Source: an uncultured Elusimicrobia bacterium (lineage in GTDB: Bacteria > Elusimicrobiota > Elusimicrobia > Elusimicrobiales > UBA9959). Taken from it: a stretch of DNA of 38,995 nt. Under the pieces are notes generated by a model. It saw only the letters and a program-made list of their open reading frames with translations. It had not been told where the DNA came from and ran no database searches. Positions 1 to 31,032 of this stretch are shown here, one piece after another. A program made the translations under genes and the position numbers. Numbering within the stretch: the first letter of the stretch is position 1; every line of letters begins with the position of its first letter. Location: positions 1-38,995 of the forward strand of contig CAIPTO010000046.1 of NCBI GenBank assembly GCA_903867985.1, given 5' to 3'.

Positions 1-1
1 T

Positions 2-76
2 AACAACAATGTCGGCGCTCGCCCTGCCAGGACGCCACAAAGGCCGGGCCATGGGTTTTACAGAGTAGTTCCGTAG
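2..76 (+). repeat. Candidate 3' portion of a DGR template repeat (TR), truncated by the window edge; alternatively the 3' end of a variable repeat
   Basis: AAC AAC AAT GTC GGC GCT CGC CCT GCC ... reads N-N-N-V-G-A-R-P-A-R-T-P-Q-R-P-G-H-G-F-Y-R-V-V-P-stop. Adenine-rich Asn codons followed by VG(F/A)R and a GC-rich tail resemble DGR TR/VR 3' ends; same strand and about 100 nt upstream of a DGR-type RT. Confidence 0.5.
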
Positions 77-152
77 TTCCGGGGACAGTATATTTAATTC
101 CGCTAATTCCGGGGCCTAAGCCGGGGTTGAATTAAATATGCTGTCCCCGGAA
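77..152. repeat. Long inverted repeat / REP-like hairpin between candidate TR and RT
   Basis: TTCCGGGGACAGTATATTTAATTCC (77-101) is near-perfectly complementary (23/25) to TGAATTAAATATGCTGTCCCCGGAA (128-152). Confidence 0.85.
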
Positions 153-165
153 CTGCTATTAACTT

Positions 166-1158
166 ATGAAAACTTACCGGCGGTTATTTGACAGTGTAAC
201 GGCTTTCCCTAATCTGCTCCTTGCCTCTAAACTGGCGCAGAGGGGCAAGCGCTTCCGTTATGAGACGGCGTGTTTCAATTTCGGCCTGGAGAAGGATCTG
301 GTGAAACTTCAGGAGGAATTGATATCCGGGGCCTGGACGCCAGGCGCGTATCACAGTTTCACCGTTTTTGAGCCCAAGGAGCGGCCTATCGTGGCGGCGC
401 CTTACCGGGACCGCGTGGTTCATCACGCTCTGCATAATATCATAGAGCCGGTGTTTGATGCCGGCTTCATGGATGATTCATACGCCTGCCGGGACGGCAA
501 AGGGACGCACGCGGCTTTGGACAGGGCGCAGGATTTTCTGCGGCTGTCCAGGTTCGTTCTACAGTGCGACGTGCGCAAGTTCTTCTTTTCCATAAATCAT
601 GAAACGCTTCGCTCTATTATTTCAAGGAAGATAGGCTGCGCGCGCACGCTTGCGGTGATATATAAAATAATAGCGTCCGGCGGGTCTGTGGGGCTGCCCA
701 TAGGGAACCTTACCAGCCAGCTCTTCGCCAACGCTTATTTGAACGAGCTGGACCGTTTTGTCAAGCAGGGGCTGGGGCGCAGGCGGTATCTGCGCTATAT
801 GGACGATTTTCTGATCTTCGGGGACTGTAAAAGTGAATTGGCCGATATCAAAATTAAGATCGCCGGGTTTCTGGAGGACAGGCTTCAGTTGAAGCTGAAA
901 GAAACGAAGTCCGTTATCCATCACGCCGTGAACGGGGTGAGTTTTCTGGGCTTCCGCCTGTTCCCCTGCCACCGCAGGCTTACCGGCGCGAATGTGGCCA
1001 AGTTCGTGAAGCATTTTAAGGCGCTCCGGGCGGACCGGCGCGGCGGAACGGTCGGTTTTCAGGAAATGAACGCTTCGGTGCGCGCGTGGGTGGCGCACGC
1101 TGAGCACGGCAACACCTGGAACCTGCGCGCGAAAATCCTCTCCGGCGTGCCGCTGTAA
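166..1158 (+). CDS. DGR-type reverse transcriptase (RNA-directed DNA polymerase)
   Basis: 330 aa; RT motifs VLQCDVRKFFFSI, GLPIGNLTSQLFANAYLNELD, RYMDDFLIF, VSFLGFRLFP; IGxxxSQ form and C-terminal W.(A/G)HA....N resemble the Bordetella phage BPP-1 DGR RT. Confidence 0.93.
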   Translation: MKTYRRLFDSVTAFPNLLLASKLAQRGKRFRYETACFNFGLEKDLVKLQEELISGAWTPGAYHSFTVFEPKERPIVAAPYRDRVVHHALHNIIEPVFDAGFMDDSYACRDGKGTHAALDRAQDFLRLSRFVLQCDVRKFFFSINHETLRSIISRKIGCARTLAVIYKIIASGGSVGLPIGNLTSQLFANAYLNELDRFVKQGLGRRRYLRYMDDFLIFGDCKSELADIKIKIAGFLEDRLQLKLKETKSVIHHAVNGVSFLGFRLFPCHRRLTGANVAKFVKHFKALRADRRGGTVGFQEMNASVRAWVAHAEHGNTWNLRAKILSGVPL

Positions 1159-1366
1159 GTTTTACGCGGCCAGTTCAGCCTCACTCCTTTTTTAATCTGC
1201 TGCGTCCGCAAACGATCCCCCGTCTTTATCTGCCGGGAAAATAATTGTCGGCAACTTGCGGGTAAATGCGGCCATCGGTCGCAAAAATAGAAAAAAACCG
1301 CTTTCTGGGAGCGACAGTACGCTGTCGGGGTCCTCTATTATCCTATTAATACACAAAGGGGGACTT

Positions 1367-1936
1367 ATGAGTAAAGAAATTATCCCACAGGAAGTTTTAG
1401 CGGCGAAGATTTTTTTGATCCGCGAACAAAAGGTTATGCTTGACCGGGATTTGGCGGCTCTCTATGGCGTTGAAGCGAAGATGCTGAACAGGGCGGTCAA
1501 GCGCAACATGGAAAGATTCCCCGTCGATTTTATGTTCCAATTGACGCGAGAGGAATACGCGGACATCTTAAGGTGCCAATTTGGCACCTTAAGACATGGG
1601 CGGCACAGTAAGTATCTCCCGCATGTTTTTAGTGAAAACGGGGTGGCCATGCTCTCCAGCGTGTTAAAGAGCCGACGGGCCATAGCGGTGAACATGCAGA
1701 TAATGCGGACCTTCACAAAGATCCGGGAGCTGCTCAACACCCATGCCGATTTATGCCGCAAACTCGAAAAGATGGAGAAGAAATACGATTATCAGTTCAA
1801 AGTGGTGTTTGACGCTATTAAAAATCTTATCACCCTGCCCGGCAAGAAAACAAAAAGGATAGGCTTTACGGCTAAAGAAAGGGCAGCCGTATACAGTCCG
1901 GGGCTTGGCCCTGGGCCTAAGTCGGTGTTGAGTTAA
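1367..1936 (+). CDS. ORF6N (KilA-N-related) DNA-binding domain protein
   Basis: IFLIREQKVMLDRDLAALYGVEAKMLNRAVKRNMERFPVDFMFQLTREEY...YLPHVFSENGVAMLSSVLKSRRAIAVNMQIMRTF is a canonical ORF6N domain. Start moved to ATG 1367. The C-terminus reads into a repeat copy. Confidence 0.9.
   Translation: MSKEIIPQEVLAAKIFLIREQKVMLDRDLAALYGVEAKMLNRAVKRNMERFPVDFMFQLTREEYADILRCQFGTLRHGRHSKYLPHVFSENGVAMLSSVLKSRRAIAVNMQIMRTFTKIRELLNTHADLCRKLEKMEKKYDYQFKVVFDAIKNLITLPGKKTKRIGFTAKERAAVYSPGLGPGPKSVLS
1567..1593. repeat. Perfect 13-bp palindrome with 1-nt centre inside the ORF6N gene
   Basis: CTTAAGGTGCCAA-T-TTGGCACCTTAAG. Confidence 0.9.
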
Positions 1937-1957
1937 ATACGCTGTCCCCGAAACTCC
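1910..1957. repeat. Degenerate second copy of the 112-155 half of the REP-like element
   Basis: CTGGGCCTAAGTCGGTGTTGAGTTAAATACGCTGTCCCCGAAACTCC versus CCGGGGCCTAAGCCGGGGTTGAATTAAATATGCTGTCCCCGGAACTGC. Confidence 0.75.
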
Positions 1958-2106
1958 TTTTTAATGGAGAAGTGGGGGCGGGTATCGCTGGAGAGATGAT
2001 GCGCAGGCCGCTGACCTGGCCGTTGCGGCCATCCCGAACTGGCGGCCCCTGCCATTCCCGTCTTACTATCCTGCGGCTCTATAACCAAAGCCAACGCAGT
2101 AAGGGA

Positions 2107-4593
2107 TTATGGCCATTTGTGTTTGGGGTAGCGGCGGGATAACTGGGGGCGCAGTTTGGGATAGCTGACCGCCCAGAAACTTTTAAGGTCTTTTGTCACC
2201 TGCACAGGCCTCATCGACGGCGCCAGTATGTGAACCACCAGCGCTACCCGCCCGGCCGCTATCTTCGGCGTCTCTTTCAATGTGAACAGGTCCTGGATCT
2301 TGGCCTCGAGGAATGGCTCCCCGCCCTTCGGATAACGGATCTTCGCCTTGCGGCCGCCAGGCATCTCCAGCCGTGCCGGCGCGTATTTTTCTATCAGCCG
2401 GTTCTTTTCCCAACCGAACCAATTCTGCAGCGCGGGCAGAACCGGGCGCGTCCTGGCTTCCGCTACGCTCCGCGCCCCGCCGCAAATCTCCGAGATGACC
2501 AGTTTTATGTCCTCTTCGCCCAGCGGCTCAAACTCCAGGTCCGGGCAGGCTTTTGACAGGAAGTCCACGCGCGCCAGCCATTCGTCCGCTTCCTCGTTCC
2601 AATTCTGCAGTTTATGGCGCCCGCTGGTAAACTCCGCGGCTATCAGGTTAGAAGATGTTTGACCGCGCGCGGCGCCGGAGATCTCGCTGCGGATGACGAT
2701 ATCGCGGTATAGCGTGAGCGTCTCGGTAACTGGTGTGAGCATATCCTTATCCAACGCCGGCCGGGAGATGGTGGTGATCTGCCCGGGGAAGGCTTCTCTC
2801 AGCCATTCCTCTTTTATCTCGGCGGCGAATGAAAGAGTTATATCAGTTCCGGTGCGGTTGGCGCTTTCAAGCGCTTCACCGGCGCAGATCAAAGACGCGC
2901 CGGCGGCGGCGCTGCCGGGTTTAAGCCGTGCGCGTTTCCCCCCCGTCAATTGATACCGGCCTTTTTCAGAGGAAACCAGGGCAGCCACGCGATCCGGAAA
3001 AGCGCGCAGGAAGCATTGCGCCGCGCATGTAAGGGCGCGGGTTCCGCCCGGCTGTGCCGTGCCGGCGAGTCGTTTTGCTACCCTCCATACGTCACGGGCT
3101 ACTCCGGATTTAACGCCGGCGCGCTCGCAGGCGTAAGTGTCGAAATCTGCCCCGGCGCAAAATTCAAGCGCTTCTGCCACCGCGGCCAGGTCGGAACTAA
3201 GGTCCGCTCCGTAACTCATATCCTGTTTGGCCCTTTCCAGCCAAAGGCCTCGGCCTTGCGCGGCGGCCGCGATGAGAGCGCACTCATAAAGGCAATTTCT
3301 AATTTTGGCCTCGGCCAGCATGCGGGAATATCTGGGGTGAAGAGGGTAATCAGCCATAGCGCGCCCTTCCGTGGTGAGATCGCCCCCCTTATCTGTCGCG
3401 CCCAGTTCGCGCAGCAGGGCCTCGGCGCGCTCGGCGTCCCTCGGAGCCGGCGGGTCCAGCCATTTCAACGCGGCAAAACCGGAGAAGCCGCATGCTTTTA
3501 TGGTTAACAGGGCTTCGCTCACATCCAAGCGCAGGATTTCAGGTTCCAGCTTCACCGGGCGGTGACTGTTTTCCCGCTCTGTCCATAAGCGCGCGCAAGC
3601 TCCGGGCTGGGTCCTGCCGGCGCGCCCCGCGCGCTGGATCGCCGAAGGGGCCGCGATGTTTTCGGTGAACAGAGTGTTTATGCCGCGCGCGCCGTCAAAA
3701 CGTGCTATTCTGGCCAGGCCGCTGTCGATCACCGCGGTAACGCCTTCTATGGTCAGTGAGGTTTCGGCTATATTGGTGGTGACTATGATTTTGCGCCGGT
3801 TAGAAGGAGAAAGCGCGGCGTCCTGCTCGCGCGTCGGCAGTTCGCCGTGAAGGGGCGTAATGGAGAATTCGTTCAGAGCGGGTATGCCGGACAGCGCGGC
3901 GCAGGTTCTGCCTATCTCAAAAGCGCCGGGCATGAACACAAGGGCGTGGCCGCCGCTGATCGCCGGCAGCAGGTGCGCGCAGGTTTTAGCCGCGGCTTCC
4001 CACGGGGGAAACTTAGCGGTATCTTCGCCGCAGTAAATTGTTTTCACCGGGAAGACGCTGCCCTTAGCTGTCACGATCTCGCATGGCGCCAGGAAAGCGG
4101 CCAGCGGTTTTTCTTCCAGCGTGGCGGACATGACCACTATAAGCAGATCCGGCCTTGGTCCCTCCTGCAGCGCCAGGCAGGCCGCCAGGGTAAGGTCGCC
4201 GTGAATGTGACGCTCGTGAAACTCATCCAATATTATTACCGAGTATTTTTTAAGATGGGGATCCGAGACGAGTTCCCGCAGCAGGATCCCTTCGGTTTCA
4301 AAGATTATCCGTGTTTTGGGTCCCGTGCGGTCTTCGAAGCGCACGCGGTATCCGACTTCGGCGCCGGCCGCCCCGCCCCTTTCACCGGCGACGCGGTCCG
4401 CCAGCATTCTGGCGGCCAGGCGGCGCGGCTGGAGCACGGCGATCCGGCCTTTGAAAATTCCGCTGTCCAGCAGCAGCTGGGGAACTTTTGTGGATTTACC
4501 CGAACCGGGCGGGGAAGAAATTATCAGCCGCCGTCCATGCTTGGCCGCGCGCAGGATCTGGTCGGCGTTCTGTAATATGGGGAGTTGGAGCAT
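2107..4593 (-). CDS. hrpB: ATP-dependent helicase HrpB
   Basis: 828 aa; SSPPGSGKSTKVPQLLL, DEFHER, SAT, QRAGRAGRTQPG motifs; HrpB-type C-terminal region. Confidence 0.93.
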   Translation of the reverse strand: MLQLPILQNADQILRAAKHGRRLIISSPPGSGKSTKVPQLLLDSGIFKGRIAVLQPRRLAARMLADRVAGERGGAAGAEVGYRVRFEDRTGPKTRIIFETEGILLRELVSDPHLKKYSVIILDEFHERHIHGDLTLAACLALQEGPRPDLLIVVMSATLEEKPLAAFLAPCEIVTAKGSVFPVKTIYCGEDTAKFPPWEAAAKTCAHLLPAISGGHALVFMPGAFEIGRTCAALSGIPALNEFSITPLHGELPTREQDAALSPSNRRKIIVTTNIAETSLTIEGVTAVIDSGLARIARFDGARGINTLFTENIAAPSAIQRAGRAGRTQPGACARLWTERENSHRPVKLEPEILRLDVSEALLTIKACGFSGFAALKWLDPPAPRDAERAEALLRELGATDKGGDLTTEGRAMADYPLHPRYSRMLAEAKIRNCLYECALIAAAAQGRGLWLERAKQDMSYGADLSSDLAAVAEALEFCAGADFDTYACERAGVKSGVARDVWRVAKRLAGTAQPGGTRALTCAAQCFLRAFPDRVAALVSSEKGRYQLTGGKRARLKPGSAAAGASLICAGEALESANRTGTDITLSFAAEIKEEWLREAFPGQITTISRPALDKDMLTPVTETLTLYRDIVIRSEISGAARGQTSSNLIAAEFTSGRHKLQNWNEEADEWLARVDFLSKACPDLEFEPLGEEDIKLVISEICGGARSVAEARTRPVLPALQNWFGWEKNRLIEKYAPARLEMPGGRKAKIRYPKGGEPFLEAKIQDLFTLKETPKIAAGRVALVVHILAPSMRPVQVTKDLKSFWAVSYPKLRPQLSRRYPKHKWP

Positions 4594-4598
4594 TATGG

Positions 4599-4625
4599 TA
4601 GAGGACTAGAGGATTGGAGGATTGG
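4599..4625. repeat. Short tandem octamer repeat (intergenic)
   Basis: TAGAGGAC-TAGAGGAT-TGGAGGAT-TGG, period 8. Confidence 0.7.
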
Positions 4626-4653
4626 CCAGATTTATAAAAATTTATGGAAGTTT

Positions 4654-5433
4654 TTAATTGTTGGTGTTTCCCTTTGGTTTTTCCCGGCGGAATTTCTTTT
4701 CAAATTTGGACGCGGTTTCCACGCGCGAAACGGTAGCCGTGTCTCCGGTCACCGTAAAATGTACTTCCCGGTCGCACAGGAAAAATTCCAGTTCCGCGCC
4801 GTCCTTCATCTGCGTGGCGTCCCGCATATTGCGCGGATCGTTACGGAGGGTTCCCGCGATCAAACCGCGCAGATCTGGCCCGTCCGACAGGCGCTTCAGC
4901 CCTATATCCTTAAGGGCGCGCGCCGAGAATCTCACTTTCAATTCAGGGAAATCGTTACCGGGCACCCAGCCGGATAAAGGATCTTTAGCGCAATCGCTGA
5001 AAGGAAGATATGGCTTGATATCCAGCACCGGAGTACCGTTTATCAGGTCTATCCCGGAAAGGTGCAGCGTGTCGCCCTTAACCATTTCAAGCTTTGCCAG
5101 CGAGAGTCCTAAAGGATTGGGGCGATGCGGCGACCGCGAGGCGAAAACGCCTATCTTCCTCCCCCGCAGACGCGGGGGATGGATCTTGGGATGAAAGGTT
5201 TTATTTGTATTCAGATGAAACCAGGAAATAAGCCACACATGGCTGAATTCAGCCAGACCGGCCAGCGAATGCTCGGGAAAATATTGCGGATAAATACGGA
5301 GCCTGGCTGTTGATCCCGGAACAAAGCAAGGCTGTCGAGGTGTACCGAATTTTTCCTGAAAACAGGACTCCAATACACCGATCACCTGCAGTTCCTTAAA
5401 ACCGGCTTCTTTTTCTTTGATTAATGAGGTCAT
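4654..5433 (-). CDS. trmO: tRNA (adenine37-N6)-methyltransferase, TrmO/TsaA family
   Basis: LAEFSHVWLISWFHLN, HPPRLRGRKIGVFASRSPHRPNPLGLSLAKLE, LDIKPYLPFSD: TrmO signature. Confidence 0.92.
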   Translation of the reverse strand: MTSLIKEKEAGFKELQVIGVLESCFQEKFGTPRQPCFVPGSTARLRIYPQYFPEHSLAGLAEFSHVWLISWFHLNTNKTFHPKIHPPRLRGRKIGVFASRSPHRPNPLGLSLAKLEMVKGDTLHLSGIDLINGTPVLDIKPYLPFSDCAKDPLSGWVPGNDFPELKVRFSARALKDIGLKRLSDGPDLRGLIAGTLRNDPRNMRDATQMKDGAELEFFLCDREVHFTVTGDTATVSRVETASKFEKKFRREKPKGNTNN

Positions 5434-5434
5434 T

Positions 5435-6211
5435 CTATGTGGGTTTTACCGCCAAGACTATCATGCGGTCGGTTTTATCCGTTAGTTTGTCGCCGCTGAA
5501 GCTGCCCCAGAACTTCAGGGGTTCTAAGCCGGCTTTTCGCAGGGCTGTGCTCATGCGACCTTTGGAATAGAGTCGCGAGAAGAAATTTCTCGTACGTGTT
5601 TTGCCTTCCCCTATAATAGTCCAGGCGTTGAGAGTTCCGTCTTTGGTCAGCGCGGCATCCTCCAGGTGGTAGGCTCCGTTCTCCAGCCTCATCCAGTTCC
5701 TGGCCCGGAAGTTCTTGCGGACGTAATCGCCGTGCACTATATCTATGATCAAGATCCCCCCCGGTTTCAGCGCCCGGGCCGCGCCTTTCAGGGTTCTCAT
5801 ATCGTCTGAAAAACGCTGGAAATACCCAAAACTCGTGAACAGGTTAATGACCGCGTCGAAGGTGTCTTTAAATTTCAGGCGGCGCATATCACCGCGGACC
5901 AGAGTCAGTCTTACTCCGGCTTTTTTTGCTTTGATCTTGGCTTCCTTAAGGTAATCGGCGGAATAGTCGTAGCCTGTTACGTCCATGCCTTTTTTAGCGA
6001 GCAATATGGCGTGTCGGGCCGGGCCGCAGCAAAGATCAAGCAGCTTATCGCCTTTTTTGAGATTGAGGTGCTTTAGAAGGAACTTAACTTCCATCGGCGC
6101 TTTAGACATCGCCGCGGGCGAAGCCGGATTATAGAAGGGATTTTTAAAAAAATCTTTATGCCATTCGTGCGGAACTTTCATATTTGACAGCGGAGAACCG
6201 GGAAAATACAA
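5435..6211 (-). CDS. Class I SAM-dependent methyltransferase
   Basis: LLDLCCGPARHAILLAKKGMDVTGYDYSADYL motif I; FDAVINLFTSFGYF. Confidence 0.88.
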   Translation of the reverse strand: MYFPGSPLSNMKVPHEWHKDFFKNPFYNPASPAAMSKAPMEVKFLLKHLNLKKGDKLLDLCCGPARHAILLAKKGMDVTGYDYSADYLKEAKIKAKKAGVRLTLVRGDMRRLKFKDTFDAVINLFTSFGYFQRFSDDMRTLKGAARALKPGGILIIDIVHGDYVRKNFRARNWMRLENGAYHLEDAALTKDGTLNAWTIIGEGKTRTRNFFSRLYSKGRMSTALRKAGLEPLKFWGSFSGDKLTDKTDRMIVLAVKPT

Positions 6212-6217
6212 GAGGAG

Positions 6218-6240
6218 TAGAAGATTGGAGGATTAGAAAT
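6218..6240. repeat. Short tandem octamer repeat (intergenic), same family as 4599-4625
   Basis: TAGAAGAT-TGGAGGAT-TAGAAAT, period 8. Confidence 0.65.
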
Positions 6241-6259
6241 TATAAGGAACTTATTTATG

Positions 6260-6733
6260 TTACCCCTTCAGCATATTTTTATATATGCCGGGTTCCGAAC
6301 CTTCTATTACCGTCGCTCCTACCGTTTTTGTGAAAAAATCCGAGGGTCCGGCCCATCCCACTATCGCGTAACCGTAGCCGGCTTCGCGCATGGCTTCCAG
6401 CGTCCGTATCAGCAGGCCTTTCCCGAGGCCGGTTTTCCTCAGGGTTTCAGCCACGCCTATAGGTCCGAAAAATCCCTTTGCGGTCGCGTCATAGCATGCA
6501 AAACCGGCAATTTTTGAGTCCTTAACCGCTACAAAACAGGAACAGGGCGCGTTTGAAAAAGCCGCGTCGCATTCTGAAGCCCAGCCTTTGGAAAATTTTT
6601 CACCCACCCAGTTTAGAATATGATGCTTTTCCGGGGTGATGGCGCGTTTTATCTCTACTCCGTTGCGCGAAAGGTCGGCTAAAATTTCCAGCGAACCCGG
6701 AAGCGCGTAAAGTTTAACAAGGAGATCCGCCAT
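6260..6733 (-). CDS. GNAT family N-acetyltransferase
   Basis: GPIGVAETLRKTGLGKGLLIRTLEAMREAGYGYAIVGWAGP: GNAT acetyl-CoA binding region. Confidence 0.8.
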   Translation of the reverse strand: MADLLVKLYALPGSLEILADLSRNGVEIKRAITPEKHHILNWVGEKFSKGWASECDAAFSNAPCSCFVAVKDSKIAGFACYDATAKGFFGPIGVAETLRKTGLGKGLLIRTLEAMREAGYGYAIVGWAGPSDFFTKTVGATVIEGSEPGIYKNMLKG

Positions 6734-7158
6734 TATTGGCCTTCCTGATCCGGCGGTTTCTCCTGGTCGCTGCCTTCTATGGGAGGCTTGGGTTTTAATT
6801 TTTGCCGCGGCCCGGGGGGCGGAGGCGGTTCCTGAGGCGGGGTTCCGGTCGCGGGGCGGGATGGTTTTTTCTTGGTTTTTATTTCCTTAATTATAGGGTT
6901 GGCTTTTTTATCGAATTTGTAGGTGGGCACGCTGTCCGATTGTTTGAATATGTATTCCGAAGCGGGTTTTGGGGCCGATTTTTTTGGTTTTTTTGTGACC
7001 TTCTTTTTCGCCGGTTTTTTTATCGGAGTCTGTTTAACAGGGACAGCGGTTTCCGTGGAGGCTTCGGTTGAGTCTTTGGAGTCCTGGGCTGAAACCAGCA
7101 ATGTCGCAGGCATTAATACTAGAAGAGAGATAAGAAATATTTTTTTAAGTTTGTTCAT
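6733..7158 (-). CDS. Secreted Lys/Pro-rich hypothetical protein
   Basis: Signal peptide MNKLKKIFLISLLVLMPATLLVSAQ, then low-complexity KKPAKKKVTKKPKK and PPQEPPPPPGPRQKLKPKPP. Start trimmed to 7158. Confidence 0.65.
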   Translation of the reverse strand: MNKLKKIFLISLLVLMPATLLVSAQDSKDSTEASTETAVPVKQTPIKKPAKKKVTKKPKKSAPKPASEYIFKQSDSVPTYKFDKKANPIIKEIKTKKKPSRPATGTPPQEPPPPPGPRQKLKPKPPIEGSDQEKPPDQEGQ

Positions 7159-29783: not shown

Positions 29784-29789
29784 CTAAGG

Positions 29790-29858
29790 AAAGGCGATGA
29801 TGTTCGCCCTTCCGGCGTCGGCCGGAAAAACCGCCAGAAACGGCTGATAACCTCTACC
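29790..29858 (+). promoter_or_regulatory. Fluoride riboswitch aptamer (crcB motif)
   Basis: AAGGCGATGATGTTCGCC...AACCGCCAGAAACGGCTGATAACCTCTACC matches the conserved GGCGATG..CGCC / CTGATRRCC(T/G)CTAC architecture. GATGTT/AACCTC pseudoknot pairing possible with one mismatch. Confidence 0.88.
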
Positions 29859-29882
29859 TTAATTCAGGCAGAGGTTTTTTTA
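29849..29882 (+). terminator. Intrinsic terminator of the riboswitch expression platform
   Basis: AACCTCTACC-TTAATT-CAGGCAGAGGTTTTTTT; overlaps the aptamer 3' end. Confidence 0.82.
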
Positions 29883-29898: not shown

Positions 29899-31032
29899 AT
29901 GAATACAGACATGACGCCGCTTGCGGGAGGCCTGCTGATTTTTGCCGCGAGCGTGATCAGCCTCAGACTGGGAATCTCCGTGGCTATATTTGAGACGCTG
30001 CTTGGGCTGGCCGCCGGAAACCTTGGCCTGCCCGCAGCCGACTGGATGGTATATCTCGCCGGGTTCGGCGGCATAGTGCTGACTTTCCTTGCCGGCAGCG
30101 AAGTGGACCTGAAACTGCTAAAAAATAATTTCAGGGCGGCAGGGGTCGTCAGCCTGGCCTCTTTTCTGGCGCCGCTTGCGGGAGGTTTCTTTTTTTGTCG
30201 TTATTTTGCCGGCTGGAGCGTTCCCGCGGCGCTTATAACCGGCATAGCGCTTTCAGAGACCTCCCTGGCGGTGGTTTATTCAGTGCTTGTGGAAACCGGT
30301 TTGGTTAAAACACGGACCGGGAAACTTCTGATGGTATGCACTTTCCTCACCAATACGATGACGGCCGTAGCTCTTAGCCTGGTTTTCCTGAAGCCAAACC
30401 CCGGCACCTTGATTTTTTTATTGCTCTCAGCCGCTTTTCTGCTCTTCGCCGGGCGTTTTTCCATGGGGATAATCCGTCATCCCGCGCTGGCAGGTAAAGT
30501 TATCGAACCGGAGATAAAATATATTTTCTTCGTGCTGCTGGCTTTCGTCTATCTGGCGGAACTCGGCGCCAGTCAGGCCATACTGCCGGCGTTCATCTTC
30601 GGGCTTGTCATGGGAAAGCATTTCAAAGTCCAGCGCCGCACCGCCGATATAAAAAACCGGCTGCGCACGGTTTCTTACGCTTTTATTACCCCCTTCTTCT
30701 TTATAGTGGCCGGTATGAGGGTTTCCCTCCCGGCGCTCTGGGCTTCGGCGGGTCTTTTCCTGGCTGTTTTCGCCGTAAAGCAGATTTCAAAATTCGCGGG
30801 GGTCTATTTTCTTATGAATAAGTATTTTCCGAAAGGCGGGATGTATTCCACGCTGATGATGTCCACGGGGCTTACTTTTGGCGTGATGGCGGTTATGTTC
30901 GGACTCAAAGCCGGTTTCCTGGACCAGCGTCAATATTCCATATTGATAGGCGTGCTGATAGCCAGCGCCGTCATCCCTGCATTCGTGGCCCAGAAATGGT
31001 TTGCCCCGCTAGAGGATGAAGATATAATGTGA
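29899..31032 (+). CDS. Cation:proton antiporter (CPA2/Kef-like membrane domain)
   Basis: 377 aa; multiple TMs; FGGIVLTFLAGSEVDLKLLK, GIALSETSLAVVYSVLVETGL, RTVSYAFITPFFFIVAGMRVSL. Confidence 0.88.
   Translation: MNTDMTPLAGGLLIFAASVISLRLGISVAIFETLLGLAAGNLGLPAADWMVYLAGFGGIVLTFLAGSEVDLKLLKNNFRAAGVVSLASFLAPLAGGFFFCRYFAGWSVPAALITGIALSETSLAVVYSVLVETGLVKTRTGKLLMVCTFLTNTMTAVALSLVFLKPNPGTLIFLLLSAAFLLFAGRFSMGIIRHPALAGKVIEPEIKYIFFVLLAFVYLAELGASQAILPAFIFGLVMGKHFKVQRRTADIKNRLRTVSYAFITPFFFIVAGMRVSLPALWASAGLFLAVFAVKQISKFAGVYFLMNKYFPKGGMYSTLMMSTGLTFGVMAVMFGLKAGFLDQRQYSILIGVLIASAVIPAFVAQKWFAPLEDEDIM

Follow-up and report, generated by a model that had tools for sequence, protein, structure and literature searches.

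The left edge of this Elusimicrobiota contig poses a simple question: are a reverse transcriptase (RT) gene and the short sequence before it what remains of a diversity-generating retroelement (DGR), and if so, where is the rest? In the DGR pathway, the RNA of a template repeat (TR) is reverse transcribed in an error-prone manner at adenines, and the product retrohomes into the VR of a surface protein with a C-lectin fold (PMC3240598, PMC8144416, PMC12875486). The window, meaning the whole 38,995-nucleotide stretch analyzed here, corresponds to positions 1 to 38995 of contig C46 of the assembly, and its base 1 is the true contig end. The genome bin amounts to 2.6 Mb in 147 contigs and is 91.8% complete. 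Since the window starts at the first base of the contig, it lacks Avd, the VR, and the greater part of the TR, and the contig break falls exactly at the DGR element. A sequence-only reading of the same DNA had proposed a DGR at the left edge, and this proposal was essentially right, with the RT placed in the DGR clade and the TR tail in register with those of relatives. The window very probably holds the 3' half of a chromosomal Elusimicrobiota DGR, laid out like its closest relative, L026, in the order target gene (with a 3'-terminal VR), avd, TR, and RT. The features of the left edge are as follows.

1 to 36, plus strand: TR 3' end, NNNVGARPARTP, consisting of the last Asn (AAC/AAT) codons and then an invariant GC-rich stretch of the IMH* type (from the L026 alignment and the relatives' loci)
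37 to 62, plus strand: remaining native TR-RT spacer, GCCGGGCCATGGG, common to L026 (from the alignment with L026)
63 to 163, no strand assigned: REP-like palindromic repeat, arms at about 73 to 100 and about 129 to 156, with a small inner hairpin (absent at the same place in L026; fold; genome copies)
166 to 1158, plus strand: complete DGR-type RT of 330 amino acids, IGNLTSQ and YMDD intact (PF00078, 8ub7, PHROG 1423, and tree)
1036 to 1159, plus strand: repeat 100% identical to the end of C69 (5158 to 5281, minus strand), marking an assembly fork

The reverse transcriptase groups with DGR enzymes

The 330-amino-acid RT had been recognized from its IGxxxSQ motif, which is present as IGNLTSQ and is accompanied by YMDD. 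The protein encoded by ORF 166-1158 matched RVT_1 (PF00078; 8.7e-22), PDB entry 8ub7 (5.3e-59), a solved structure of the BPP-1 DGR RT, and the PHROG 1423 reverse transcriptase (3e-111), and it showed 38% identity to BPP-1 brt. Phylogenetic placement, one of the checks that had been suggested, was carried out with IQ-TREE on 53 RTs, including group II intron RTs from the same family and retrons from the same phylum. The RT fell within a 42-row DGR clade (support 100/98). All RTs of the tree for which a TR/VR pair was demonstrated belong to that clade, and the group II intron and retron RTs lie outside it. The sister of the window RT is the RT of L026, with support of 100/100 and 74% sequence identity. 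It is barely conceivable that this is instead a group II intron, retron, or defense RT preceded by an A-rich sequence through chance: PADLOC and NCBIfam did return generic RT matches, including a group II maturase model under its cutoff, but the NCBIfam matches (group II, retron, and DRT models) are all far under their curated cutoffs, the RT lies in the DGR clade at 100/98, and the TR-end match described below ranks top within the relatives' loci.

A candidate constraint on synonymous codons, from an RNA spacer overlapping the RT start, was not supported (first 22 codons, 12/17 versus 133/221; P = 0.28). Separately, the tree contains a group of Elusimicrobiota RTs of about 510 amino acids with YVDD and a C-terminal extension (L085 [G050:C310, minus strand], L068, L069, L078, and L082), which sits on a long branch within the DGR clade. 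At L085 the TR is upstream of the RT and the VR is in a downstream 213-amino-acid ORF, the two differing almost only at TR adenines.

The contig begins within a template repeat

The relatives' loci were scanned with a script that picks out near-repeats in which the two copies differ at adenines of one of them; as a control, it recovered the annotated BPP-1 TR/VR pair at the annotated position. Most relatives of the RT adjoin a TR/VR pair, typically with 14 to 22 A mismatches against 0 to 3 others. The L026 locus is the DGR of the Elusimicrobiota MAG E14_concoct.bin.112 (JAUSCK010000083.1), and 17 of its 18 TR/VR mismatches are at TR adenines, with 1 elsewhere. It is organized as follows.

2829 to 5111: FGE-domain (FGE/C-lectin-type) target, with the VR at 4985 to 5107
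5226 to 5579: Avd (NF033474, above cutoff)
5848 to 5970: TR, separated from the RT by 30 bp
6001 to 6984: RT

Read on the RT strand, bases 2 to 31 of the window, AACAACAATGTCGGCGCTCGCCCTGCCAGG, which precede the RT gene, translate as NNNVGARPAR, in full agreement with what had been stated from the sequence alone. Bases 1 to 36 matched the 3' end of the L026 TR at 29 of 36 positions and in register; the second match in that locus, at 26/36, is presumably the VR copy, and the background was 21/36. To control for chance, the best match of these 36 bases was taken against the whole locus of each DGR-bearing relative (n = 9). In eight of the nine, it was the locus's own TR 3' end, again in register, which bears out the earlier description of a truncated TR-like sequence at the left edge. 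Bases 1 to 36 are the tail of the DGR template repeat, the remainder of which lies off the contig.

An alternative reading of these bases is a VR, with a target gene ending upstream of the RT by coincidence. Nearness to the RT by itself cannot separate the two, and the reading frame is open across bases 1 to 36. However, the AAC/AAT codons, with their template adenines, are intact, which argues for a TR and not a VR: the adenines of AACAACAAT are TR-like, whereas the VRs of relatives are substituted at those positions. The frame also continues into the spacer, in contrast to the L026 target, which stops after TP, and the GCCGGGCCATGGG that follows corresponds to the L026 TR-RT spacer and not to the sequence after the L026 VR. 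We consider a VR at this position very unlikely.

A REP-like palindrome lies between the TR and the RT

The TR had been placed immediately before the RT. The TR tail and the RT are both there, but they do not adjoin, as a strong palindrome at about 63 to 163 stands between them. It measures about 90 to 100 bp, and window positions 63 to 163 fold with -59.4 kcal/mol (z = -9.7). The palindrome core, GGGACAGTATATTTAATTC, recurs as inverted pairs on C129, C96, C128, and C64, one arm is seen on C8 and C23, and a degenerate copy is found on C69; copies or partial copies are dispersed over at least six further contigs of the same genome. There are also two Y1_Tnp genes in the bin (on C71 and C96), and the one on C96 is about 1.4 kb from a palindrome copy. 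Presumably, the palindrome and the Y1 transposase fit a REP-like element with its transposase (RAYT-like), which would putatively mobilize it. Window positions 1 to 62 can be aligned with the TR end and spacer of L026, leaving the palindrome as a clean insertion. Judged by this alignment, the palindrome is an insertion into the TR-RT spacer and not a part of the DGR by origin.

Window positions 1891 to 1960 hold a partial copy of this REP-like repeat, namely, its right half (GGGCCTAAGTCGGTGTTGAGTTAAATACGCTGTCCCCGAAACT), which overlaps the 3' end of an ORF6N-domain gene (ORF 1256-1936). Elsewhere, the 102-nt TR-RT spacer of L032, an Omnitrophota DGR, is filled by a GTCATTGCGAGCGA-type repeat hairpin (positions 3139 to 3240; z = -4.5). 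This repeat, which is unrelated to the REP-like palindrome, provides a second example of a TR-RT spacer that holds a genome repeat.

What the insertion does to the element can be considered in light of BPP-1, whose TR and brt are separated by a spacer that adopts a fold, brings in RT-Avd, and contains the adenine used for priming (PMC12875486). Because the BPP-1 spacer has these recruiting and priming roles, the inserted palindrome may impair the element, inactivate it, or be tolerated. We think it improbable that the palindrome has become a functional component of the DGR RNA, a stable helix added to the spacer that RT-Avd binds, such that DGR spacers would recruit genome repeats as RNA structure.

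Somewhat easier to entertain, though still on the unlikely side, is a degenerate or inactive DGR remnant in which the RT is intact and the REP-like insertion, possibly together with loss of the target or avd, has halted mutagenic homing. Such a remnant would be the same element, and so a variant of the best explanation and not its opposite. A very stable hairpin of about 100 nt (-59 kcal/mol) breaks up a spacer that measures just 30 nt in L026, which would matter for a region with the role known from BPP-1, and neither avd nor the VR was found in the bin. Against this, the RT has an intact ORF and keeps its motifs, and since the bin breaks exactly at the element, little can be read into the lack of the other parts. 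In addition, long or strongly structured spacers occur in several DGRs with TR/VR pairs, namely, 144 nt in BPP-1 and 102 nt with a z score of -4.5 in L032.

Missing parts and a candidate left flank

Searches of the bin (147 contigs, about 92% complete) with DNA, pattern, Avd, and target-protein queries did not find the VR, Avd, or the rest of the TR. The L026 Avd, used as a query, gave no match in this incomplete bin, the avd gene being expected beyond the contig end, and the exact 22-bp TR tail had no match among viral contigs. Because C46 breaks off within the TR and part of the genome is absent from the bin, the failure to find the VR, Avd, and the TR remainder is not evidence of absence.

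The only yield of the search for target, VR, and avd in the bin was an N-terminal fragment at the right end of C45 (35856 to 36062 of 36063, plus strand), a homolog of the L026 target protein with a signal-peptide-like N terminus; the C terminus of this target was not assembled. The fragment matches the L026 target at 66% over 38 amino acids and a 583-amino-acid FGE protein of the same-genus genome G056 at 58%, and the G056 protein ends in a VR-like GARCARTP. The end stretch of C45 is rare in the family, with matches in 4 of 59 genomes. Because that stretch is rare and encodes the N terminus of a target homolog, C45 is a plausible left neighbor of C46. As the candidate left flank, it would be separated from C46 by a gap of perhaps 2 to 3 kb, and the link between the two is circumstantial. 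Flanking gene order is not conserved among same-genus genomes and so has no bearing on the adjacency of C45 and C46.

The only FGE-sulfatase match of the bin, at 239 to 1468 of C69, was considered as the target and rejected, as it ends in GFRCVVP without a TR-like 3' end and no A-biased pair was found on C69. In other genomes, FGE-domain proteins with VR-like tails of the GARxARTP type were seen at L113 (1908 to 3659; G056:C29), L114, and L115. They occur in genomes in which no DGR RT was found (G056 and G049) or far from the RT (G050:C263), and they are possible orphan or remote DGR targets.

The assembly forks at the other end of the RT gene. Identity with C69 extends to a single base after the RT stop codon; from there on, the DNA is entirely different. 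The second RT 3' end on C69 would come either from a variant strain or from an additional copy of the RT that has a different downstream flank. This alternative flank (C69, or L019, positions 1 to 5281) has, by eye, what seem to be MNT/HEPN and AbiE-type toxin-antitoxin genes, and it also encodes a zinc-ribbon FGE-sulfatase protein. Farther along the window, a fluoride riboswitch (RF01734) at 29784 to 29863 lies upstream of ORF 29899-31032.

Proposed function and significance

By analogy with L026, the chromosomal DGR that we favor would have included an Avd, a full TR, and a VR and would be active. The RT and Avd would bind the TR-containing RNA together with its 3' spacer, reverse transcription of the TR RNA would introduce errors opposite adenines, and the resulting cDNA would replace the 3'-terminal VR in the gene for a secreted surface protein of the FGE-sulfatase/C-lectin type. 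The REP-like palindrome has entered the TR-RT spacer of this element.

The locus adds one more chromosomal DGR for the Elusimicrobiota, a phylum for which the open-access literature searched gives almost no DGR paper. The new detail is the repeat hairpin in the spacer; the element is otherwise ordinary for DGRs. The insertion offers a natural case that bears on how far DGR RNA tolerates added sequence in a region for which BPP-1 requires a particular fold.

Comparison with known DGRs

The DGRs of Omnitrophota and Planctomycetota MAGs (e.g., L027 to L030, L032, L034, and L044) have RTs 41 to 49% identical to that of the window over the best segment, and their TRs share the consensus GGNWNN...SDRNNA...NRNNN, with mismatches that are adenine-only or nearly so. 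They differ in having other spacers, and the palindrome of the window was not seen there. BPP-1 (brt, avd, and mtd) has an RT homologous over its full length, and its TR likewise precedes the RT gene and lies on the RT strand. It is a phage element with the Mtd tail fiber as its target, whereas the window is part of a bacterial contig with a predicted secreted FGE-domain target. Compared with L026, which is complete (target, Avd, TR, and RT) and has a 30-bp spacer, the window lacks everything to the left of the TR tail and carries the REP-like insertion in its spacer. L026 is nevertheless a family-level relative, alike in its RT (74% identical) and in a TR 3' end and spacer motif that can be aligned with those of the window.
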